NCBI GenBank assembly: GCA_012838315.1
Contig: DUPM01000088.1
Location: forward strand, 1-64,000
Source: Clostridiaceae bacterium
GTDB taxonomy: Bacteria > Bacillota > Clostridia > Saccharofermentanales > Saccharofermentanaceae
Reading direction: 5' to 3'
DNA length: 64,000 nt
The notes beneath the pieces are model-generated. The model was given only the letters and a program-made list of their open reading frames with translations. It did not search any database and was not told the DNA's origin. A program made the position numbers and the translations under genes. Positions 3,772-15,525 of the stretch are shown here, in pieces. Each line of letters opens with the position of its first letter. The stretch's first letter is position 1.

Positions 3772-4944
3772 TCAATATGTAAACTGTTCTCCGTTGAACT
3801 CAATGTGCACTTGATTGCGATCGGGGGTCGAGGATACTTCAACACGTCCAACCACTTGAGCCCGAACATTGAACGACTCAGAAATTGCAATGATTTCGTC
3901 TGCCACTTCCGGCTCACAGTAAATCTCGATACGATGACCGCAATTAAAGACTTGGAACATTTCCTTGAGCGGTATCTCACCCGACTCATAAATCGTCTGA
4001 AAAATTGGCGGAAACTCGAACATATTATCTTTGACATAAGATACGCCGTGCCCGAAGTCTTTACACTTCGCCTGTCCACCGCCTGTACAATGAATAATAC
4101 CGGAAATATGCGAACGAAAACGTGGAATAATCTCAGCTAAAATCGGCAAATAAGTTCGGGTCGGCGACAGTATCGCGTCACCGACAGTCATGGTCGAACC
4201 CGGAAGAGGATCTGACAATAAGAACTTCCCGCAATAGGCTTTATCCTCTGGAATGGTCTCCGAAAGGGATTCCGGATAGGTATGAAGATATTGCTTCGAT
4301 AAAAGCATGTGTCTTGCGGCGGTCAATCCGTTCGATGAAATGCCGGAATTCTCTCGGTCTTCATAGCTCGCTTGTCCGGAAGACGAAAGTCCGACAATGA
4401 CGTGACCCGGCTTGATATTCGACGCGTTAATCACATCACTTCTCTTCATACGCACGACAATGGTGGAATCAATGATGATCGTGCGCACTAAATCGCCAAC
4501 ATCTGCCGTCTCACCGCCACACATATGTATTTTTACCCCATGCGACTCCAACGTATCTACAACGCGGTTGTAACCATCAATCACTTTCGCAATACACGCG
4601 CCATTCACACGATGAGCATTTCTACCGATCGTGTTGGATAAACTAAAGTCGTTAATAGCACCAATACAGGCTAAATCATCAGTATTCATGACCAGTGAAT
4701 CCTGTGCCAACGAGGAGAAAACCTCCGGATCTCCGGTCTCCATATACTTGAGATAACCGACGGAGGACTTGGTCCCTGCACCGTCTGCATGAATCGCCAT
4801 ACAGTAATTCTCATCTCCGGCTATATCTTCGATGAGTTTGCAGAACGCACCCGGAAAAACACCTCCGGACTGATTAGCGACCGCCTTCTTGACATCATCC
4901 TTAGTCGGTGACACGCCTCTGCTTAGATAGGATTCTGCTGACAT
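3772..4944 (-). CDS. purM: phosphoribosylformylglycinamidine cyclo-ligase (AIR synthase)
   Basis: PurM closes the imidazole ring of purine synthesis: FGAM plus ATP gives AIR. The 390-residue product has the family's N-terminal sequence (Y-L-S-R-G-V around residue 5), the A-I-H-A-D-G-A-G-T-K-S nucleotide/substrate segment, M-N-T-D-D-L-A-C and the H-M-C-G-G-E-T-A-D-V segment. At 390 residues it is longer than the E. coli form (about 345) and matches the long variants seen in Bacteroidetes and some Clostridia. Longer readings of this frame would run into the RNase P RNA; the ATG at 4944 has AGGAG seven bases upstream and is preferred over the ATG at 4950, which would leave only one base of spacing. 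The other pur genes found here (purE, N, H, D) sit 40 kb away. Confidence 0.9.
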   Translation of the reverse strand: MSAESYLSRGVSPTKDDVKKAVANQSGGVFPGAFCKLIEDIAGDENYCMAIHADGAGTKSSVGYLKYMETGDPEVFSSLAQDSLVMNTDDLACIGAINDFSLSNTIGRNAHRVNGACIAKVIDGYNRVVDTLESHGVKIHMCGGETADVGDLVRTIIIDSTIVVRMKRSDVINASNIKPGHVIVGLSSSGQASYEDRENSGISSNGLTAARHMLLSKQYLHTYPESLSETIPEDKAYCGKFLLSDPLPGSTMTVGDAILSPTRTYLPILAEIIPRFRSHISGIIHCTGGGQAKCKDFGHGVSYVKDNMFEFPPIFQTIYESGEIPLKEMFQVFNCGHRIEIYCEPEVADEIIAISESFNVRAQVVGRVEVSSTPDRNQVHIEFNGEQFTY

Positions 4945-5000
4945 ACTCATTCTCCTCTTGATGAACCGCAAGGCGGCATAATATGTAAATAACGTTATCT

Positions 5001-5343
5001 GAGTCAACCTGTAAGCCGGGTTCTGTCTTAGACGATCATCTATCTAGGCCGAACATTTCTGAACGGCTCAAGCCGCCTCCTCGAGACCTGCGGACCACAG
5101 TAGTGTCTCTCCATGGCGTTGCTCCGGGTGGGGTTTACATGGCCGAATCGTCTCCGATCCGCCGGTGGGCTCTTACCCCGCCGTTTCATCCTTACCTCTC
5201 CGAAAAGAGGCGGTTTGCTTTCTGTTGCACTTTCCTTAAAGTCGCCTTCACCGGGAGTTACCCGGCACCCTTGTCCTATGGAGCCCGGACTTTCCTCGTG
5301 AGCGCTCGTTGAAGCCCTGCCCACGCGACCGTCCGGCCGACTC
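5001..5343 (-). ncRNA. rnpB: RNase P RNA, bacterial type A
   Basis: This is the catalytic RNA that trims 5' leaders from pre-tRNAs. On the minus strand the ends GAGTCGGCC (5343-5335) and GGTTGACTC (5009-5001) pair over nine bases to form P1. The conserved segments are in order: GAGGAAAGTCCGGGCTCC, then GGGTGCCGGGTAACTCCCGG, then GTAAGGATGAAACGGCGGGG, then GTAAACCCCACCCGGAGCAA, and finally ACAGAACCCGGCTTA near the 3' end. The GAGGAAAGUCC and ACAGAAYCCGGCUUA boxes are the diagnostic core. Short ORFs in this stretch are chance readings. It has its own promoter and is followed after 56 bases by purM. Confidence 0.97.
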
Positions 5344-5356
5344 AGATAACATTCCT

Positions 5357-5385
5357 ATGATAAACAAAGCCGTCATCGATGTCTA
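5357..5385 (-). promoter_or_regulatory. sigma-A promoter of rnpB
   Basis: Minus-strand TAGACA (5385-5380), 17-base spacer, TATCAT (5362-5357). The expected start point, about 5350, lies a few bases before the mature 5' end of RNase P RNA at 5343. Confidence 0.6.
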
Positions 5386-5476
5386 GCAAAACAAACGGTT
5401 TCGGCGAATTCTCCTGCCACCGCAACATCTTCGTTCAAACACGGCAATATGCATAGAATCGCAAGTCGAAAACGCG

Positions 5477-6241
5477 CTATTGCTCCGAATCTGACGCGAT
5501 GAAATTCGTTGCGATGCAAACATTGAGCTCAGAAAAAGCATGCGTCAATTTCTCTTTGAGCATCGGCAGCACAACGCGCTCCGTCGCCTCGTGTCCGGCT
5601 ACAATGACCCGAATGCCTCTCGCTTCCAGATCCACAAGAATGTGGTGCTTAATCTCACCGGTGATCAAGACATCGCACTCTCTTTCAACCATTTCAGGAA
5701 TAACCGACGACTCAAAGGATCCGCAAGCAAGTGCTACTGTTTGAACCAAATTATTCTTTTTGGACGACAATATGATACCGTTTGAATCCAACATCTTATC
5801 GACACGATCCGCCAAATCTAAAAAGGGCATGCGAGACAATAGTCGTCCGACACGAAGATAATCCAACCGGATACAAGCACCAAACCCGATGGCCTTGGCT
5901 AATGCGTCGTTGACGCCGCCCTCCGCTTTGTCGAGGTTCGTATGCATAGCGTAAACTGTAATATTATTTTCGATGATTCTTTTGATCATCGCGCCTTGAG
6001 ATTCCGAATAATCAATCTTCAGACATGGTTCGAAAAAAATCGGATGATGCGTAATCAAAAATCTTGCATCGTTCTCAATGCACTGATCTATGACGTCCGG
6101 TGTGACATCTAAAGCGAGCATTACCTTTGAGATTGGATCTTCACGTGTGCCAACCATCAAACCAACATTGTCCCATGGCTCGGCAGATATCGTTGGCGCA
6201 ATGGTATCCAGATACTCTTCAATTTCTTTGAACGAATACAT
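5477..6241 (-). CDS. Nif3-like dinuclear metal centre protein
   Basis: A 254-residue member of the NIF3/YqfO (DUF34) family, which forms hexameric toroids with two metal ions per subunit. The metal-ligand segments L-I-T-H-H-P-I-F-F and M-H-T-N-L-D-K-A are present near residues 62 and 100, and I-V-A-G-H-E-A-T-E-R near residue 220. The length matches the short family form without the central PII-like insertion of B. subtilis YqfO (about 370 residues). The start is ATG 6241 with GGAGG seven bases upstream; the longer reading adds 21 residues with no such support. It follows trmK in a tight operon, an arrangement common in Firmicutes. The exact function of the family is unsettled. Confidence 0.9.
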   Translation of the reverse strand: MYSFKEIEEYLDTIAPTISAEPWDNVGLMVGTREDPISKVMLALDVTPDVIDQCIENDARFLITHHPIFFEPCLKIDYSESQGAMIKRIIENNITVYAMHTNLDKAEGGVNDALAKAIGFGACIRLDYLRVGRLLSRMPFLDLADRVDKMLDSNGIILSSKKNNLVQTVALACGSFESSVIPEMVERECDVLITGEIKHHILVDLEARGIRVIVAGHEATERVVLPMLKEKLTHAFSELNVCIATNFIASDSEQ

Positions 6242-6310
6242 AACAAATCCTCCAAAAACTTCCCGCATGTCTTCAAACACGCAAGTATGATTGCCAATTG
6301 ACAATCGGGC

Positions 6311-6985
6311 CTATAGAGTCTGAATCACTTTTTCAACATATTCGAGAACCGGACGCAGTTCCGGTTGACCGAGCACTTCTTTTTTTAAGGTCTTCCATCG
6401 ATCTCTGATAAACGGCTCAAAATACAAAGGGCGTTTTTCAAGAATAACCGGACCCAAAACCGCGGAGATCATATCCGTCTGATAAACCTTCCCGGTATAC
6501 ACCGCTAAAATACCGACATAGAATTTGTTTTTGTCTTCGGCAATCCGTTCGTCTCGGATTTGTATACCCTTCCGTGCCATGAACTCGCGTAATTCGCGAA
6601 AAGACCTCTGCGGTTGCAGTAAAAACTCTGCGCCCATCTCAACGGCACCCTCCGATAAAGCCTCTTCAAGAATATGCATTATCTCATATCCGCCCATCCC
6701 GGCAATCAATACGGCATCATTCGCGTGCACCTGAAGCGAACGCAGTCCGTCATTGCAGAATACTCGAGTTCTATCAGAAAGGCCCTGCTTTTCGAAATAT
6801 TTCGCTGTTCGCTCCGCAGGCAAGGCATGGATATCTGTCGCAATTACCCTATCTGCCAAGTCATTTTCTAATGCGTAAGCGGATGCGTAACCGTGATCCG
6901 AACCGACGTCGATAAAGACCTCCACCGGCCGAAGCATATTCATCAGTACATCCAATCGATTGGGCAGTTCCGTCTTCTTTATCAA
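6311..6985 (-). CDS. trmK: tRNA (adenine-N1)-methyltransferase, A22 specific
   Basis: TrmK methylates N1 of adenine 22 in tRNA using S-adenosylmethionine. The 224-residue protein opens with the family pattern P-N-R-L-D-V-L, followed by the SAM-binding motif V-F-I-D-V-G-S-D-H-G-Y, and later has L-I-A-G-M-G-G and L-Q-P-Q-R-S-F-R-E-L-R, all typical of the family. I place the start at a TTG (6985) with AGAGG seven bases upstream; an ATG at 7015 inside dnaG would add ten residues unlike the family start. The gene overlaps the end of dnaG and precedes the nif3-like gene. In most Firmicutes rpoD lies between dnaG and this gene; here it does not. Confidence 0.9.
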   Translation of the reverse strand: MIKKTELPNRLDVLMNMLRPVEVFIDVGSDHGYASAYALENDLADRVIATDIHALPAERTAKYFEKQGLSDRTRVFCNDGLRSLQVHANDAVLIAGMGGYEIMHILEEALSEGAVEMGAEFLLQPQRSFRELREFMARKGIQIRDERIAEDKNKFYVGILAVYTGKVYQTDMISAVLGPVILEKRPLYFEPFIRDRWKTLKKEVLGQPELRPVLEYVEKVIQTL

Positions 6986-6995
6986 ACAGACACCT

Positions 6996-8864
6996 CTACA
7001 TCGTATCCGGCTCATCCGGACGAATTTGTTGTCTCAGATACTTTAAATATTGCTCGATCTCACGAAGTAACGCCTGATTTCGAACACGTTCTTGGTCACT
7101 CAGATTCCCAGAAAGCGATTCAACTAGCGTCTTTTTCCTTTGTTTATAGGTTTCAAACCGAATGCGATACAGCAAGTTAATGAAGATATCTATGACTTCA
7201 TCCGTCAATGCCCCGACACTGCTTTTCATGATCATTCTCGAAAAATAATCTTTGGCGGGCTTGCCGTTCAGCGTCATGTCTGAAGAAATCTCAAGTAGTT
7301 TATTCACATCAATTTGACCTTGCGCAGCAAGCATAAACACATTAGTTGCAATCTCTCTCATATTGCCTTGCGAAAAATCTTGAGGCAATGGTCGATCCGG
7401 CAATTTTATATACGCCTCCGGCAACATGCTAATCATCCCGATAAATCGAATTTCATCGGCAGATGCATACATCGTATCAGTCGGAATGGGGGCCATATCC
7501 TGTTCGCGCTCCGCACCGCTTCTGAATCGCACCGGCTCGCTGTTTTTGCTCTGAGATTCCGTGCGCACCACCTCCTGCAAAACACTGGCCACAGAAACGC
7601 CCAAGCGCTCTGCAACCTTTCCGGCGAAACGCTCTCGATTGATAGCGTTGGTCTCCCACGAAAGAAACGTACAAGCCATCTCTTGGTAAACTCGCGGATC
7701 AAATCGGCCGTCAATGGTGCTTTGAGTCTCAGCGACTCCGATCAAATAAGCCATGACCGGCGCCGCATCTGCCGCAACGCGTCGAAATGCCTCAGCACCG
7801 TGCTCTCGAATAAATTGATCAGGATCTTTGCCATCCGGAACTCGACCAACGGACAGCCGCACCTGAAGCGTGCTTTGGGAAGCCATTTTCGCCATCAGGA
7901 GTCGAAGCCCTCGTACTGCTGCCTCTTGTCCGGCTCGGTCCGAATCGTAAAAAAGGATCAACTCCTCCGCATAACGGGATGCCAACGTCATTTGCTTTTC
8001 CGTCAAAGCCGTACCCAGTGTTGCCACAACATTCTTGACACCGGCCTGATACATCGAGATGACGTCCATATAACCTTCAACAATAATCAATGTCTTTTCT
8101 CGAACGGCTTTCGCAAAATTGAGGGCATAAAGCGTACTTTTTTTCGAGTAGACCGCAGTTTCCGGTGAATTGATATATTTAGGCATGCCATCCGTCAGAA
8201 TTGTACGCCCGCCGAATGCGATGATTTTGCCCATAGTATCGAAAATCGGAAACATCAGTCGACCACGGAAGAGATCGACACGATCGCCCCTTTTGCTCCG
8301 AGTAAAAAGTCCGCATTCGTCAATCACTTCATCGCTATAATTTTTTTCTTTCAGATATCGATAAAGTCCATCGCGCGAATCCGGTGCGTAACCCAAACCG
8401 AACGTTCGAACTGTGCTTTCAGAAAGCTCACGTTTCTTAATATAATCTTTCGCGCGAGCGCCTTGACTCGATTGTAATGATTTGTAAAAATACCTCGCCG
8501 CATCTAGCAACGCCGCGCGAATCGCGTCTCTTTTCTCCGCAACAATGCGATACCCATCATCTTGAGGTTCGGGAATCGAAACTTGAACTCTCTCCGCCAA
8601 TAGACGGATGGCTTCAGGGTAAGTGAGCTTCTCAATCTCCATGATGAAATTGATCACATTCCCGCCCTTATGACAACCGAAGCAGTAATATATCTGCTTG
8701 GTGATTGAAACAGAAAAAGAGGGCGTGTCTTCGGAATGAAACGGGCACAGACCAAATTGATTCTGCCCGCTTGTCTTCGTAAAACGCACGTATTCGCCAA
8801 CCACAGACACAATGTCACTGCGGGCGACGACCTCCTCAATAATGTTCTCTGGAATCCCTGTCAC
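6996..8864 (-). CDS. dnaG: DNA primase
   Basis: DnaG makes the RNA primers for lagging-strand synthesis. The 622-residue product has the N-terminal CHC2 zinc ribbon (Cys40, His43, Cys61, Cys64), the RNA polymerase core, and the TOPRIM fold with I-I-V-E-G-Y-M-D-V near residue 260 and F-Y-D-S-D-R-A-G near residue 310. The C-terminal third is the less conserved DnaB-interacting region. The start is a GTG at 8864 preceded by AGGTGG with a short spacer. It lies between an HD-domain gene (30 bases upstream) and trmK, which begins inside the last codons of dnaG. Confidence 0.97.
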   Translation of the reverse strand: MTGIPENIIEEVVARSDIVSVVGEYVRFTKTSGQNQFGLCPFHSEDTPSFSVSITKQIYYCFGCHKGGNVINFIMEIEKLTYPEAIRLLAERVQVSIPEPQDDGYRIVAEKRDAIRAALLDAARYFYKSLQSSQGARAKDYIKKRELSESTVRTFGLGYAPDSRDGLYRYLKEKNYSDEVIDECGLFTRSKRGDRVDLFRGRLMFPIFDTMGKIIAFGGRTILTDGMPKYINSPETAVYSKKSTLYALNFAKAVREKTLIIVEGYMDVISMYQAGVKNVVATLGTALTEKQMTLASRYAEELILFYDSDRAGQEAAVRGLRLLMAKMASQSTLQVRLSVGRVPDGKDPDQFIREHGAEAFRRVAADAAPVMAYLIGVAETQSTIDGRFDPRVYQEMACTFLSWETNAINRERFAGKVAERLGVSVASVLQEVVRTESQSKNSEPVRFRSGAEREQDMAPIPTDTMYASADEIRFIGMISMLPEAYIKLPDRPLPQDFSQGNMREIATNVFMLAAQGQIDVNKLLEISSDMTLNGKPAKDYFSRMIMKSSVGALTDEVIDIFINLLYRIRFETYKQRKKTLVESLSGNLSDQERVRNQALLREIEQYLKYLRQQIRPDEPDTM

Positions 8865-8894: not shown

Positions 8895-9557
8895 TTATAG
8901 CAGTTGCGTCTGATTGATATATAGCTCAAACGTTTTACACAAAAAATTCGCAGCGTTTCTGCAGAACTTCATGCGTTGTAAAAAAATCTCAAAATAGTCC
9001 ATAACCGGACAAATCGTCGTATCAATCTCGATCTCCAAGCGGACACAATCATCGATGACATCAATAACAGACTTCGTCGCGGCAAAGTTGACACGATCAT
9101 GGATATCAAATGTCTCTTCTTGACGATTGCGTACACGACTGCGATGTACGTCGGCCTTATCCGCAAGAATTAAAGCCGCTCCGATATGATTGGTCGGAAC
9201 ACCTTCGCCTTCATCGTGATTGGCAATCGCCATCATAATCATGCCCGCATCATCATAATCCATACCTTTTCTCAACAACATGTCGTAAGCCAACAATGCG
9301 CCCGATTGTGCGTGATTATTGCGACTAACTGCATTGCCGATATCATGGATGTATCCGGCAATCTTTCCAAGCTCTATGATTTGCTCAGTCTCCCCGAGCT
9401 TTTCTAAAATCTCGCCACACTTATTGGCCACAAGACGACAATGGCGAAAAGAATGCTCTGTGTAGCCGAGCGAATCCAGCTGTATTTCAGCCGCCCGCAA
9501 TAGCGAGACCACTTCTCTACTTTTTTGAAAATCTTTGAGCGTTAATGTCTTGGGCAT
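8895..9557 (-). CDS. HD-domain phosphohydrolase-like protein
   Basis: A 220-residue protein with a complete HD-superfamily metal site: H-S-F-R-H near residue 35, Y-I-H-D-I-G near residue 88, H-A-Q-S-G near residue 101, and A-N-H-D-E-G-E-G near residue 130, followed by I-L-A-D-K-A-D. HD proteins of this kind hydrolyse nucleotides or other phosphoesters, but the substrate here cannot be told. A dGTPase-like gene (dgt) often precedes dnaG in Clostridia; this shorter protein occupies that position and is not clearly the same family. The ATG start has GGAGG six bases upstream. It is probably cotranscribed between scfB and dnaG. Confidence 0.8.
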   Translation of the reverse strand: MPKTLTLKDFQKSREVVSLLRAAEIQLDSLGYTEHSFRHCRLVANKCGEILEKLGETEQIIELGKIAGYIHDIGNAVSRNNHAQSGALLAYDMLLRKGMDYDDAGMIMMAIANHDEGEGVPTNHIGAALILADKADVHRSRVRNRQEETFDIHDRVNFAATKSVIDVIDDCVRLEIEIDTTICPVMDYFEIFLQRMKFCRNAANFLCKTFELYINQTQLL

Positions 9558-9636: not shown

Positions 9637-11088
9637 TCATATTTGAGAGTCTGCCGATGCGGCTGAAAGCCAAATTGAACACTCCAGACGCTTTTTTGCA
9701 AGTTCACATCCGACCCTATACTCCTCGTCCAACGACCCGGTCGAAAAATATCGATTTGCAGCACATCCACCGCCACAATGGTATCGCGCAAAACACGTCT
9801 TACATGATTCGCGATTCGGCATCAGACGATCGTAAAAAATCTGAAGCGTGTCCTGATCCAATATGTCTGTAGCGTCTTTTCCTTCGATCAAATGCTTATT
9901 CTCGTCCAATATCGAATGTATCGAAGATACATTCCCCATCAAAAATTTCTCTACTCCGACAAATTGATGACATGGATAGATATCACCTTCGGGCGTTACC
10001 GCACAATACTCCGCGCCAACGCCACATCCCTTAAGTCTCTTGTAGACACATGGCCCATTCGACATATCCATATTGAAGTGAAAAAAGTTCACCGGTTCTC
10101 CGGCAGCTCGGCGTCCGTGAAGATAGCGAGCCAGTTTCTCATACTCATCAAAAATAGCCGGCAAGTGTGACTCGTGAATACTGTAATCACAGTCTTCTGG
10201 TGCGACAACCGGCTCAACGGAAATTTGATTGGCCCCCAGGGATTCTGCCATATGCTTCACATCCTCGGAAAAATCAAGATTGTGACGCGTAAATGTGGCG
10301 CGAACATAGTGCTCATAATATGTCGATTCGTCGGACCTCCGCCGTTCGACAAAAGCTTTGATACGCTTTGAAATCGGCTCATAGGAAGGTTTCCCACCAA
10401 TCCCGGGACGCATGCGATTATGGACTTCCGGCCGGCCATCAATACTCAGAACACAGTTCTTCATATACTTATTAATAAATGCAGTCTTCTCTGCATCTAA
10501 AAGCAAAGCGTTGGTCGTAATCGTCAATCGGATGTCTTTGCCGTGCTTCGGTCCATTCTCGTTACAATAATGCGTCAGCTCCACAACAACCGGCCAATTC
10601 ATCAGAGGCTCACCGCCAAAAAAATCTATATCGAGGTGTTTCCTATTACCGGATGCAGCTATCAAAAAATCAATGGCCGCTTTACCGGTCTCAACACTCA
10701 GCATAGATCGGTGACCTGTTCCGTAGTCTCCGGTGCCCGCAAAACAATAAGTGCACCTTAAATTGCAATCATGGCATACATGAAGACACATTGCCTTAAT
10801 TCTCGGTTGATCCGGATACAAGTGATGATAGTCATATTCTATTGGTGCGGCAAAAAGCGTCCCCTCGGCAATGATGGAATCAAAATCATCACAAATTTCT
10901 TGAAGCTCTAAAATCGATGTCTTATGTGAAGCAACTGAATCATTAAGTAACTCGACACTCGGCCTCTGACCCTTGCCGTCAATATATAAGCGAATCACAT
11001 CATATGAAATCTCATCCAGTTCAAAAAATGCACCGGAGTCCGAGTCGTATACAATGTGTCGGTCAATCATAAAAAATGCGTGTACCAA
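9637..11088 (-). CDS. scfB: SCIFF radical SAM maturase (thioether-forming)
   Basis: A 483-residue radical SAM/SPASM enzyme that installs Cys-to-alpha/gamma-carbon thioether links in the SCIFF peptide. Residues 1-85 look like a PqqD-type leader-recognition (RRE) domain. The radical SAM cluster ligands are C108, C112 and C115 (C-N-L-R-C-T-Y-C), followed by F-F-G-G-E-P-L. The SPASM region has C-A-V-T-P-E-G-D-I-Y-P-C, then S-C-K-T-C-F-A-R-Y-H-C-G-G-G-C, and a last Cys near residue 460, enough to bind two auxiliary 4Fe-4S clusters. The start is a TTG with GGAGG six bases upstream; an ATG six codons later has no such site. The precursor gene scfA lies 80 bases upstream. Confidence 0.95.
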   Translation of the reverse strand: MVHAFFMIDRHIVYDSDSGAFFELDEISYDVIRLYIDGKGQRPSVELLNDSVASHKTSILELQEICDDFDSIIAEGTLFAAPIEYDYHHLYPDQPRIKAMCLHVCHDCNLRCTYCFAGTGDYGTGHRSMLSVETGKAAIDFLIAASGNRKHLDIDFFGGEPLMNWPVVVELTHYCNENGPKHGKDIRLTITTNALLLDAEKTAFINKYMKNCVLSIDGRPEVHNRMRPGIGGKPSYEPISKRIKAFVERRRSDESTYYEHYVRATFTRHNLDFSEDVKHMAESLGANQISVEPVVAPEDCDYSIHESHLPAIFDEYEKLARYLHGRRAAGEPVNFFHFNMDMSNGPCVYKRLKGCGVGAEYCAVTPEGDIYPCHQFVGVEKFLMGNVSSIHSILDENKHLIEGKDATDILDQDTLQIFYDRLMPNRESCKTCFARYHCGGGCAANRYFSTGSLDEEYRVGCELAKKRLECSIWLSAASADSQI

Positions 11089-11168
11089 AATATTCCTCCA
11101 AATAAACAGAAAATAGTGAAGACGATCGAATCGCCTCCACTATCTCCGATCAATCAAATCAATAGGTG

Positions 11169-11312
11169 TTATTGGATCGCTTCGCAGCTCTGGTTGGCAA
11201 CGGTGCAGCTTGTCTTGCAAGCGGACTGGCAGGATGTCTGACATTCACCGCATGCGTGGCCACTGGACGGAACCTTAACAGTCGCTTTTTGGATTTGCTT
11301 AATGTGTTTCAT
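11169..11312 (-). CDS. scfA: SCIFF ranthipeptide precursor (six Cys in forty-five)
   Basis: A 47-residue peptide precursor, too short for routine ORF listing. It begins M-K-H-I-K-Q-I, a basic leader of about 20 residues, then a core with six cysteines at residues 21, 24, 28, 32, 36 and 43, spaced with Ser, Thr and Ala acceptors. This is the signature of the SCIFF family, found almost throughout Clostridia next to its radical SAM maturase. The ATG at 11312 has GGGAGG seven bases upstream. The gene sits between yajC and scfB, the expected partner. No peptidase or exporter gene lies nearby. The family has been linked to quorum-type and metabolic control in Clostridia, but no function can be read from this sequence. 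Confidence 0.95.
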   Translation of the reverse strand: MKHIKQIQKATVKVPSSGHACGECQTSCQSACKTSCTVANQSCEAIQ

Positions 11313-11326
11313 AAATGAACCCTCCC

Positions 11327-11677
11327 TTAGTCTGCGCTCTCGCGCTTAATGATCGTGCTGATTGCGCTCTTCTTAAATGTTATCATGGAATGTGCAATAC
11401 TTGTAGTAATTGTAACTTCATCTTCCTTGATGTTCGCAACTGTACCGGTAATGCCACCGATAGTCACAATTTTATCACCAACAGCAATAGCGTCGACCGC
11501 CTTGCGAAGTTCTTTCTCTTTCTTACGCTGTGGACGAATCGAGATAAAATAAAACAAACCCATAACTGCAACCAGCATGGCAATCGGAATAAAGGAATCC
11601 AAAAGACCCATTGTCGGAACTGCCTCGGCAGCTGCCTCAGATGCCACAGGTTCTGCAGCCAATAAAATACTCAACAT
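11327..11677 (-). CDS. yajC: preprotein translocase subunit YajC
   Basis: YajC is the small accessory subunit that joins SecD-SecF on the Sec channel. The 116-residue protein has a short N-terminal hydrophobic stretch, one clear transmembrane helix at about residues 27-46, then the family signature I-R-P-Q-R-K-K-E-K-E and a small beta domain with V-G-D-K-I-V-T-I-G-G-I-T-G. The ATG has GGAGG seven bases upstream. It is the first gene of the yajC-scfA-scfB unit and has its own promoter. secD and secF are not in the window. Confidence 0.95.
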   Translation of the reverse strand: MLSILLAAEPVASEAAAEAVPTMGLLDSFIPIAMLVAVMGLFYFISIRPQRKKEKELRKAVDAIAVGDKIVTIGGITGTVANIKEDEVTITTSIAHSMITFKKSAISTIIKRESAD

Positions 11678-11715
11678 CAGTAATCCTCCAATTGTTGTCA
11701 GTAAATGTACAGCTC

Positions 11716-11745
11716 ATTGTAACACTGTAAATCAAGAAGTGGCAA
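11716..11745 (-). promoter_or_regulatory. promoter of yajC-scfA-scfB
   Basis: Minus-strand TTGCCA (11745-11740), 18-base spacer, TACAAT (11721-11716) with an extended -10 TGT. Transcription would begin near 11709, about 30 bases before the yajC start codon. It implies that the SCIFF locus is transcribed independently of queA-tgt. Confidence 0.55.
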
Positions 11746-11800
11746 GATGTTTGTTGTTAATAAGAAAGTCAATGACACTATGGATTAAACAGATAACAAA

Positions 11801-13459
<1,659 letters not shown>

Positions 13460-14503
13460 TTAACCTCTCTCTTGTCTTTTCGTAAGAAACATAGCGTCTC
13501 CAAAACTGAAAAAGCGATATCTCTCTTGCACGGCCTCATTGTAGGCGCGAAAAACGTTATCTTTGCCGGCAAATGCCGAAACCATCATAATCAGTGTGGA
13601 TTCCGGAAGATGAAAATTCGTGACCAACGCATCCACACAATGAAAATCATATCCCGGATAAATGAAAATGCTGGTATATCCGGAGCACGGACGCATATCC
13701 GGATCCATTTGGGCGACGGACTCCAATGTTCGGCAACTCGTCGTGCCAACGGCAACAATCCGACGCCCTTCTTTTCGCGCACGACGAACCTTATCCGAAG
13801 CATCTTCCGGGAAATCAAACCACTCCGAGTGCATTAGGTGATCTTCAATGTTCTCGGACTTGACCGGGCGAAAAGTCCCCAGTCCGACATGAAGTGTCAC
13901 TTCGGCAATCTCAACACCCTTTTCGTTGAGATTATTTAAGAGATCTTTCGTAAAGTGAAGTCCTGCAGTCGGTGCTGCAGACGAACCCGGTGCCAAAGCA
14001 TACACCGTCTGGTAGCGCTCTTTATCTTCCAATTGTTCGTGAATATAAGGCGGTAACGGTACGATTCCCGCACGATCAAGCACTTCTTCCCAAACACCCT
14101 CATACTCAAAGGCAATAATGCGATTGCCATCCTCTTTAACGTCTTCAACGACTGCTTCCAAGACATTTTCGATAAAAACCAGGCGCTTGCCCGGTCTCAC
14201 CTTTTTCCCCGGGCGCGCCAGAGTCTCCCAACGCTTTTCATCAATGCGCTTTAGCAATAGTAACTCAATCGCACGCCCCGAGTCCTTGATTGAACCCAAT
14301 AGTCGCGCTGGAATGACACGCGTATTATTGATTACCAAAACATCGCCCGGTCTGAGAAACCGGTCCAAGTCTTTAAAAGAATGGTGAGAGATGGTGCCGG
14401 TGGTCCCATCTAGAGCAAGCAGACGCGAAGCCGTCCGATCGTCAATCGGATGCTGCGCAATCAATTCTTCGGGTAAATCATAATAAAAATCGCTAGTTCT
14501 CAT
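13460..14503 (-). CDS. queA: S-adenosylmethionine:tRNA ribosyltransferase-isomerase
   Basis: QueA transfers and isomerises the ribosyl group of SAM onto preQ1 in tRNA to give epoxyqueuosine. The 347-residue protein begins S-D-F-Y-Y-D-L-P-E-E-L-I-A-Q-H-P, and has N-N-T-R-V-I-P-A-R-L, G-S-S-A-A-P-T-A-G-L-H-F-T and V-T-N-F-H-L-P-E-S-T-L, all hallmark segments. The length is normal. No ribosome binding site precedes the ATG at 14503, and a TATAAT hexamer lies only eight bases upstream, so the transcript may be leaderless. It is the first gene of queA-tgt and diverges from dapA. Confidence 0.97.
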   Translation of the reverse strand: MRTSDFYYDLPEELIAQHPIDDRTASRLLALDGTTGTISHHSFKDLDRFLRPGDVLVINNTRVIPARLLGSIKDSGRAIELLLLKRIDEKRWETLARPGKKVRPGKRLVFIENVLEAVVEDVKEDGNRIIAFEYEGVWEEVLDRAGIVPLPPYIHEQLEDKERYQTVYALAPGSSAAPTAGLHFTKDLLNNLNEKGVEIAEVTLHVGLGTFRPVKSENIEDHLMHSEWFDFPEDASDKVRRARKEGRRIVAVGTTSCRTLESVAQMDPDMRPCSGYTSIFIYPGYDFHCVDALVTNFHLPESTLIMMVSAFAGKDNVFRAYNEAVQERYRFFSFGDAMFLTKRQERG

Positions 14504-14511
14504 GGCTCATA

Positions 14512-14540
14512 ATTATAGTCATAATTGACGTTGAAGTACA
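14512..14540 (-). promoter_or_regulatory. promoter of queA, probably leaderless
   Basis: Minus-strand TGTACT (14540-14535), 17-base spacer, TATAAT (14517-14512). The start codon of queA begins only eight bases beyond the -10 box, so a normal initiation distance puts the transcript start within a few bases of the ATG. It overlaps the opposing dapA promoter. Confidence 0.5.
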
Positions 14541-14554
14541 GTAAATGCTATCAT
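14525..14554 (+). promoter_or_regulatory. promoter of dapA-dapB
   Basis: TTGACG (14525-14530), 18-base spacer, TATCAT (14549-14554) with an extended -10 TGC. The untranslated leader would be about 50 bases, too short for a lysine riboswitch; none is seen. Confidence 0.6.
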
Positions 14555-14613
14555 TTCAACATGTCTAATTATGCACATTTTGTATTTGCAACTGAGAACA
14601 GGAGGTTCTATCA

Positions 14614-15525
14614 ATGAAAAAGCCAATTTTTCAGGGTTCGGCAGTGGCCATTGTTACACCATTTAGTGAAGGCGGTGTGGACAGTGCCAAATTGCGCCGT
14701 CTCGTTGACTTCCATCTCAACAATCGTACGGACGCTATTGTCGTATGCGGCACTACCGGAGAAGCATCTACCATGCCGGATTCCGAACACTTAGAGACCA
14801 TCAGAATTGTTGTTGAGCAAGTCAACGGAAAGGTTCCGGTTATTGCGGGCACAGGCAGCAACGATACAGCACATGGAGCAGTTCTTTCGAAGGAAGCGAC
14901 GGCAAGAGGCGCGGACGCACTGCTTATTGTTTCGCCTTATTACAACAAAGCTTCCCAAGAAGGTTTGTTTCGGCATTTTGAAGTCATGTCAAAAGCGAGT
15001 GATTTGCCCATTGTCCTTTATAACGTTCCTTCACGGACCAATTTGAATATTGATCCCAAGACCATTTGTCGACTGGCTGATTTTTCGAATGTCGTAGCCA
15101 TCAAAGAATGTAATTTAATGCAAGTGCCAGAAGTCCAATACCTCTGCGGTGACAAGATTGACCTGTACTCCGGTGAAGACGGTGTTGTGGTTCCGATGCT
15201 CTCGCTCGGCGCCAAAGGCGTGATTTCTGTAGCGGCCAACATTCTTCCTGCTGAAATGAGTCGCATGGTTCACAGTTTCTTAGATGGAGATGTCAACACA
15301 GCTCGTGATATTCAGATTTCACTCTCGCCCTTGATCAGTGCTCTGTTCTCGGATGTCAATCCGATTCCGGTCAAGGAAGCACTCAACATCCTCGGATGGA
15401 ACATCGGCAACTGCAGACTCCCTCTGTGTGAAATGTCTGACGACAAGCAGCTTCATCTCGCGGCCGTAATGAATGGGTACGATTTTTCAGCACATAAAGA
15501 AGCGCTCAAGGGGGTGTCGCAGTGA
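14614..15525 (+). CDS. dapA: 4-hydroxy-tetrahydrodipicolinate synthase
   Basis: DapA condenses pyruvate with aspartate semialdehyde, the committed step towards diaminopimelate and lysine. The 303-residue protein has the family landmarks G-T-T-G-E near residue 49, S-P-Y-Y-N-K-A-S-Q-E-G near residue 109, the Y-N-V-P-S-R-T segment, and the Schiff-base lysine in V-A-I-K-E-C-N near residue 166. The ATG is preceded by AGGAGG with good spacing. It overlaps dapB by four bases (GTGA), so the two are translationally coupled. They form a short plus-strand operon with its own promoter and terminator. Confidence 0.97.
   Translation: MKKPIFQGSAVAIVTPFSEGGVDSAKLRRLVDFHLNNRTDAIVVCGTTGEASTMPDSEHLETIRIVVEQVNGKVPVIAGTGSNDTAHGAVLSKEATARGADALLIVSPYYNKASQEGLFRHFEVMSKASDLPIVLYNVPSRTNLNIDPKTICRLADFSNVVAIKECNLMQVPEVQYLCGDKIDLYSGEDGVVVPMLSLGAKGVISVAANILPAEMSRMVHSFLDGDVNTARDIQISLSPLISALFSDVNPIPVKEALNILGWNIGNCRLPLCEMSDDKQLHLAAVMNGYDFSAHKEALKGVSQ

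Follow-up and report, generated by a model that had tools for sequence, protein, structure and literature searches.

The window analysed here, a stretch of 64,000 nucleotides from a Clostridiaceae bacterium, carries a SCIFF ranthipeptide precursor gene and its maturase gene, which we interpret, with a probability of roughly two in three, as a housekeeping pair that makes its precursor in excess, yields a product other than a classical exported bacteriocin and has yajC as a neighbour general to such loci. The locus is an ordinary member of the known clostridial SCIFF family, not a new kind of system.

The precursor gene scfA (11169..11312, on the minus strand like all genes of the locus) encodes a 47-residue peptide, MKHIKQIQKATVKVPSSGHACGECQTSCQSACKTSCTVANQSCEAIQ, with six cysteines at positions 21, 24, 28, 32, 36 and 43, and matches TIGR03973 with 70 bits (cut-off 50, E 1.2e-19) and PF13165 with 70.4 bits (cut-off 27). 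It is not a chance find, since TIGR03973 gave 0 matches in 14 control genomes. Eighty bases downstream, scfB (9637..11088) begins with a TTG codon preceded by GGAGG and encodes the 483-residue radical SAM/SPASM maturase ScfB, which scores 520 bits against TIGR03974 (cut-off 425). Its radical SAM CX3CX2C motif is present as CNLRCTYC (PF04055, 48.8 bits, above cut-off), and its SPASM domain is recognised by TIGR04085 of NCBIfam (55.2 bits against a cut-off of 27), with PF13186 slightly below threshold (20.4 bits, cut-off 21.5). The nearest solved structure by sequence is 5wgg/5why (E 1e-131, residues 1-476), which we take to be CteB. The genome of the window has this single TIGR03973 precursor match and this single maturase above the TIGR03974 cut-off; two of its other SPASM proteins (L003 and L004), considered as extra SCIFF maturases, were rejected at 144.6 and 62.4 bits.

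Read along the minus strand, the gene order is queA, tgt, yajC, scfA, scfB, HD hydrolase, dnaG, trmK, nif3 and RNase P RNA. Upstream of scfA lie yajC (11327..11677), encoding a translocon-associated membrane protein (TIGR00739, 82.8 bits, cut-off 44.2; PF02699), and two usual upstream neighbours of such loci, the tRNA-guanine transglycosylase gene tgt (12320..13450; TIGR00430, 564 bits) and a gene of cluster c2, which is conserved upstream of these pairs (13460..14503), presumably of queA type given its position. Downstream follow the gene of a 220-residue HD-domain hydrolase (8895..9557; PF01966, 27.5 bits; family alignment A1), for which the sequence match to a solved structure, 2pq7, is too weak to suggest a function, then the DNA primase gene dnaG (6996..8864; TIGR01391, 413.5 bits), the tRNA (adenine22-N1)-methyltransferase gene trmK (6311..7015; PF04816, 118 bits), which overlaps dnaG by 20 bases, and a nif3-like (DUF34) gene (5477..6304; TIGR00486, 194 bits). 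A class A RNase P RNA (4996-5344) lies 3' of nif3 and overlaps the start of a purM-like frame. The initial annotation had described this set from yajC to nif3, with a six-cysteine, 47-residue precursor adjoining its radical SAM/SPASM maturase; the coordinates are exact, both members of the pair and yajC pass their family cut-offs, and profile matches bear out each of the four downstream genes on the same strand. Between yajC and tgt, some 640 bases (11678-12319) hold a plus-strand frame of 119 residues (11964-12323) that had no family match in the profile scans, and this stretch is possibly a remnant or an insertion.

Among characterised systems, the locus stands closest to the SCIFF pairs ScfA/ScfB (CteA/CteB, Tte1186a/Tte1186). 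Both window proteins exceed the family cut-offs, and the precursor shares the cysteine positions, the C32-K-T34-S-C36-T37 stretch and the leader MKHI. The pair differs from the family in being followed by HD-dnaG-trmK-nif3 instead of secDF, and in the end of its leader, which is SGHAC here and GGC in most copies from elsewhere in the class. Kinship with the freyrasin-type maturase PapB is limited to the broad radical SAM/SPASM group: ScfB reaches 224.8 bits against the PapB model, under its cut-off of 340. ScfB also scores 432.7 bits against NF040492 (not_ScfB), the model of ScfB-related orphan maturases, but its cut-off is 855 and here the cognate precursor adjoins. In the accessible text on freyrasin, the PapA product, a Cys-X3-Asp pattern is reported, and this pattern is absent from the window precursor, which has no Asp.

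The surroundings of the pair were compared across 65 loci, 24 in the order of the window and 41 elsewhere in the class, picked from the matches by hand at about one per genus or family and not at random. Translocon-type surroundings with yajC are general in the class, and adjacency to primase is local to one order. In the 21 loci of the order with Thr at precursor position 37, which belong to four families, yajC lies upstream and dnaG downstream in every case (21/21 each), with an HD gene between scfB and dnaG in 12/21, a gene matching a hexapeptide model in 6/21, and secD downstream in 0/21. Among the 34 Thr37-type loci from the rest of the class, yajC lies upstream in 26, DUF3792 is present in 23 and secD follows in 24, alongside HD in 4, the hexapeptide gene in 5 and dnaG in 2, both times behind secDF. 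Since dnaG follows in all Thr37-type loci of the order and in only 2 of 34 elsewhere, yajC (upstream in 47/55 Thr37-type loci overall) is the general neighbour and dnaG the lineage-specific one. The arrangement yajC-scfA-scfB-(hexapeptide gene)-(HD)-dnaG is thus conserved in relatives, as the initial annotation had proposed to check; of the link it drew to both translocon and primase, the first half holds generally and the second does not extend beyond the order, so that a special tie between SCIFF and primase is rejected as a general rule. Behind dnaG, rpoD is found in 14/21 Thr37-type loci of the order and in 0/7 of those from the family of the window, six of them readable at this point, since L073 breaks off within dnaG. 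The window accordingly differs from the dnaG-rpoD arrangement, whose name we take to be the macromolecular synthesis operon, in that dnaG overlaps trmK (6996-7015) with no rpoD between. The accessible part of PMC7738495 likewise describes the SCIFF precursor as conserved and its surroundings as differing, and a literature search outside the primary SCIFF papers returned no paper naming both SCIFF and yajC.

The gap between scfA and scfB contains a terminator-like stem-loop (11109..11147, minus strand) of 18 pairs followed by a T-rich tail, which is a probable transcription stop judging by its predicted fold. Folded with its surroundings, the hairpin (11147-11109) reaches z -3.97, and 0/200 shuffles were as stable. 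After identical cases were merged, the comparison set comprised 120 combinations of gap and core. Of these, 110 were long enough to fold, and 98 had both an assigned scfB start and a length of 45-310 bases. Fold z is below -2 in 85 of the 110, some of which have a misplaced scfB start, and a stable hairpin of -10 kcal/mol or lower, followed by at least four T in nine, occurs in 48/98 scfA-scfB gaps compared with 4/83 other gaps. The latter comparison is rough, the 83 control gaps running from stop to next open frame and not to a start codon, and not being de-duplicated; the shuffle test on the 110 gaps does not share this fault. Across eight loci of the order, selected by the visual likeness of their hairpins and compared on the structure of the window, 95.4% of cells in the 14 inner pairs can pair and 5/14 pairs have changed on both sides, which 0/500 shuffles match. 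By eye, the hairpin is present in 17/21 Thr37-type loci of the order; the exceptions are L079, L085 and L090, with gaps of 0-16 bases, and L088, with a GC-rich gap and no T-run. In the whole set, 10/120 gaps are shorter than 30 bases and too short for a hairpin, two of these with an unsure scfB start.

Such a stop likely means that precursor is made in excess over maturase. The initial annotation had suggested one transcript from yajC through nif3 and had considered a terminator between scfB and the HD gene. None is predicted there (fold z +0.42, no structure); the one predicted after scfA makes a single even transcript unlikely, and yajC to nif3 is probably not one, though three of the 21 loci of the order have almost no gap within the pair.

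Precursor and maturase co-occur across the class, usually one each per genome, with a core that hardly varies. The precursor family was matched in 49/58 relatives and in 250/293 genomes sampled across the class, 248 of them above cut-off. A profile search for scfB in 30 genomes found one copy in each of the 20 with an above-cut-off precursor and none in nine genomes of the order devoid of scfA or in G323, in agreement with the accessible part of PMC5300114, which expects ScfB alongside every ScfA. G323 itself carries near DUF3792 and secD an scfA relic with an internal stop (L158), an apparent loss of scfA at its conserved site. The two genes are not adjacent in 15 of those 20 genomes; an assembly break may account for the separation in G115, G308 and G331, where scfB starts less than 400 bases from a contig start and, in G331, the contig with scfA ends shortly after it. 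At some loci, scfA remains between yajC-DUF3792 and secD with scfB at another place in the genome (L105 and L227), or is followed by HD with scfB likewise elsewhere (G066 and G098), and HD comes directly after scfA in L222 and L223 and behind a hexapeptide gene in L220 and L221, all four loci being devoid of scfB.

The same set of precursors bears on which residue accepts the cross-link. According to the accessible text of two reviews (PMC8172795, PMC8326336), Cys32 is joined to Thr37 in vitro in Tte1186a and CteA, in conflict with the Cys32-Thr34 link obtained for CteA in E. coli; the numbering of the window ScfA matches the Cys32, Thr34 and Thr37 of CteA, so that the predicted thioether donor (Cys32) and acceptor (Thr) residues are present. 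In 167 distinct precursor copies, a count that takes both halves of two-core precursors and includes the relic L158 and the partial L039, K33, T34 and N40 are found in 167/167 and C32 in 165/167, and position 37 has 118 Thr, 47 Gly, 1 Ser and 1 Ala, the Ala being that of the relic. These copies come from related genomes, and the searches that found them used TIGR03973 and a profile built from CKT-bearing sequences, which biases the set towards Thr34. Thr34 is kept in all 167 while 47 have Gly37, a residue devoid of the side-chain carbon that a gamma link needs; the alignment favours Thr34 over Thr37 as the predicted acceptor. The one genome with Ser at both 32 and 37 (G245; L204, L233) has its precursor beside scfB and a decarboxylase-like gene, and its maturase is sister to the Gly37 clade; with Ser replacing Cys32 there, a Cys32 cross-link cannot be universal, so that this genome either speaks against universality or is a single odd case.

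The 35 rows with maturases of Gly37 type group in one clade, with starred SH-aLRT support and a single change, in a quick tree of 150 rows without bootstrap in which 16 rows have no residue-37 label. None of the 10 Gly37-type loci read has yajC beside it (0/10), and 7/10 have a gene resembling Orn/Lys/Arg decarboxylases (PF01276 in one member). Within the window's own family, genera are split between Thr37 and Gly37 forms. Three precursors consist of two tandem leader-core units in one frame, the inner leader having no start Met (L143/L230 in G060, L147/L232 in G154, L150/L231 in G326), and their maturases are one subclade within the Gly37 lineage. A broader reading would have SCIFF comprise at least two lineages, one of them per genome as far as seen: a translocon-linked Thr37 one, to which the window belongs, and a Gly37 one. 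The invariant Cys32-Lys-Thr34 would be the true cross-linking unit, the terminator would set a large precursor excess, and the cross-linked peptide, uncleaved, would act within the cell. We put this forward tentatively, as somewhat unlikely.

If gene order reflects function, the peptide could instead be of service to the Sec translocon (YajC/SecDF/DUF3792), perhaps as an accessory associated with the membrane. The frequencies of yajC upstream of Thr37-type loci and of secD downstream outside the order are as expected from such a role, as is the retention of scfA between yajC-DUF3792 and secD in L105 and L227 when scfB lies elsewhere. SecDF is also commoner with SCIFF, being found in 197/250 SCIFF genomes and 25/43 SCIFF-less ones (p 0.006, kinship uncorrected). 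The same counts leave 53/250 SCIFF genomes devoid of SecDF and more than half of the SCIFF-less genomes with it, and the Gly37 loci, as noted, do not have yajC upstream. In a genome-wide profile search of the 34 genomes of the window's family for SecD_SecF_C, the genome of the window and 29 more gave 0 matches, and the remaining four gave weak ones (18.8-25.5 bits), three of them just above the Pfam cut-off of 20.5. The window's family thus has SCIFF without clear SecDF; SecDF is rejected as an obligate SCIFF partner, and service to the translocon is unlikely. In this family, no clear SecDF was seen in the 34 genomes searched, and yajC is present in its seven Thr37 loci. In the other genomes of the order, SecDF was found in 16/24 (one of them partial, 46.4 bits), with a weak match in G040, and in the two genomes compared for distance, G036 and G048, it lies about 113 and 50 kb from SCIFF on one contig.

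Alternatively, enzymes encoded far away, outside any cluster with the pair, could mature and secrete the product, which would then be an exported signal or a bacteriocin. Quorum sensing is listed for SCIFF in the accessible part of one review (PMC8326336). The most suggestive locus is L080, a Gly37 locus where two tandem exporter-type ABC pairs flank scfAB (4211-7944 and 11777-15380), the first ending just before scfA on the same strand and the second lying behind the decarboxylase-like gene. Exporter-type ABC genes (cluster c25, called from ABC_membrane and ABC_tran in the cluster member scanned) occur in just 3/66 clustered loci, and L080 is the only one where they directly precede scfA on its strand, those of L037 being about 5 kb or more from scfA and those of L072 lying 2.6 kb away on the opposite strand. 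A profile scan of 186 of the 198 unnamed neighbours within 5 kb gave ABC_membrane in 5/94 of one batch, with ABC_membrane absent from the families listed for the other batch of 92, which had Lon_C in 3/92; no widely recurring exporter or peptidase stands among the families listed, the 25 commonest of each batch, a level at which rarer ones may be missed. As the initial annotation held, no transporter or peptidase was recognised near scfAB among the window genes scanned, a subset of its frames; the single transporter recognised in that subset, an ABC set at 55.9-60.9 kb with permease and PnrA/Bmp-like domains, is 45 kb away. The genome-wide peptidase search, confined to the C39 family (PF03412), gave 0 matches in the genome of the window, an assembly of 163 contigs that is 95% complete, and was positive in 8/14 control genomes. 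A missing dedicated exporter is the rule elsewhere too, with exceptions. Bacteriocin cores in general are not near-invariant, and the SCIFF core is so across the class, which together with the missing C39 peptidase and the rarity of exporters makes an exported signal or bacteriocin quite doubtful.

The HD gene is an optional SCIFF neighbour. Of the 70 class genomes matching both HD and SCIFF (two of them through HD fragments only), 27 have it no more than 5 kb from scfA. It follows scfA without scfB in G066 and G098, and in G080, where scfA is at another place, scfB is its only SCIFF neighbour. Its presence in 70/250 SCIFF genomes and 9/43 SCIFF-less ones is no enrichment (p 0.46), which rules it out as an obligate partner, though the adjacency recurs across many families. 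An ancestral yajC-HD-dnaG remnant was sought in four Gly37-form genomes of the window's family (L215-L218) and not found, their HD genes having no named neighbours beside them except in L216, where one gene weakly matches a hexapeptide model. A functional unit with replication, with ScfB or its product working together with primase or the HD protein and yajC to nif3 forming one regulated operon, would account for this recurrence and for the constant place of dnaG in the order, and is highly improbable given the rarity of dnaG beside SCIFF outside it, the even distribution of HD and the terminator-like hairpin inside the pair.

For the housekeeping pair that we favour, the following course may be proposed. 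By analogy with CteA/CteB and Tte1186a/Tte1186, ScfB would bind the conserved leader and tie Cys32 to Thr34 through a thioether at a non-alpha carbon. Transcription from tgt-yajC would mostly stop after scfA, as the hairpin suggests, leaving precursor in excess, and expression of scfB and the genes after it would depend on read-through or on their own promoters. Because C39 is missing and no exporter recurs beside SCIFF loci, we infer that the product acts within the cell or at its membrane, or is released through a general pathway, and would not be a classical exported bacteriocin. The position of dnaG as the next gene would follow from the absence of DUF3792 and secDF from this site, the presumed direction being their loss from it. 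In C. beijerinckii, disruption of the pair lowered sporulation genes and raised agr, according to the accessible part of PMC8102284.

SCIFF is widespread in Clostridia, and the locus of the window is in itself ordinary. The hairpin nevertheless yields a prediction, an RNA 3' end inside the scfA-scfB gap, and the loci where scfA and scfB lie apart show which genes each of them stays with. The links that merit tests are adjacency to the translocon and the RNA stop, and not primase. Finally, natural Gly37 precursors would offer a direct test of the conflict between Thr34 and Thr37 as the acceptor.
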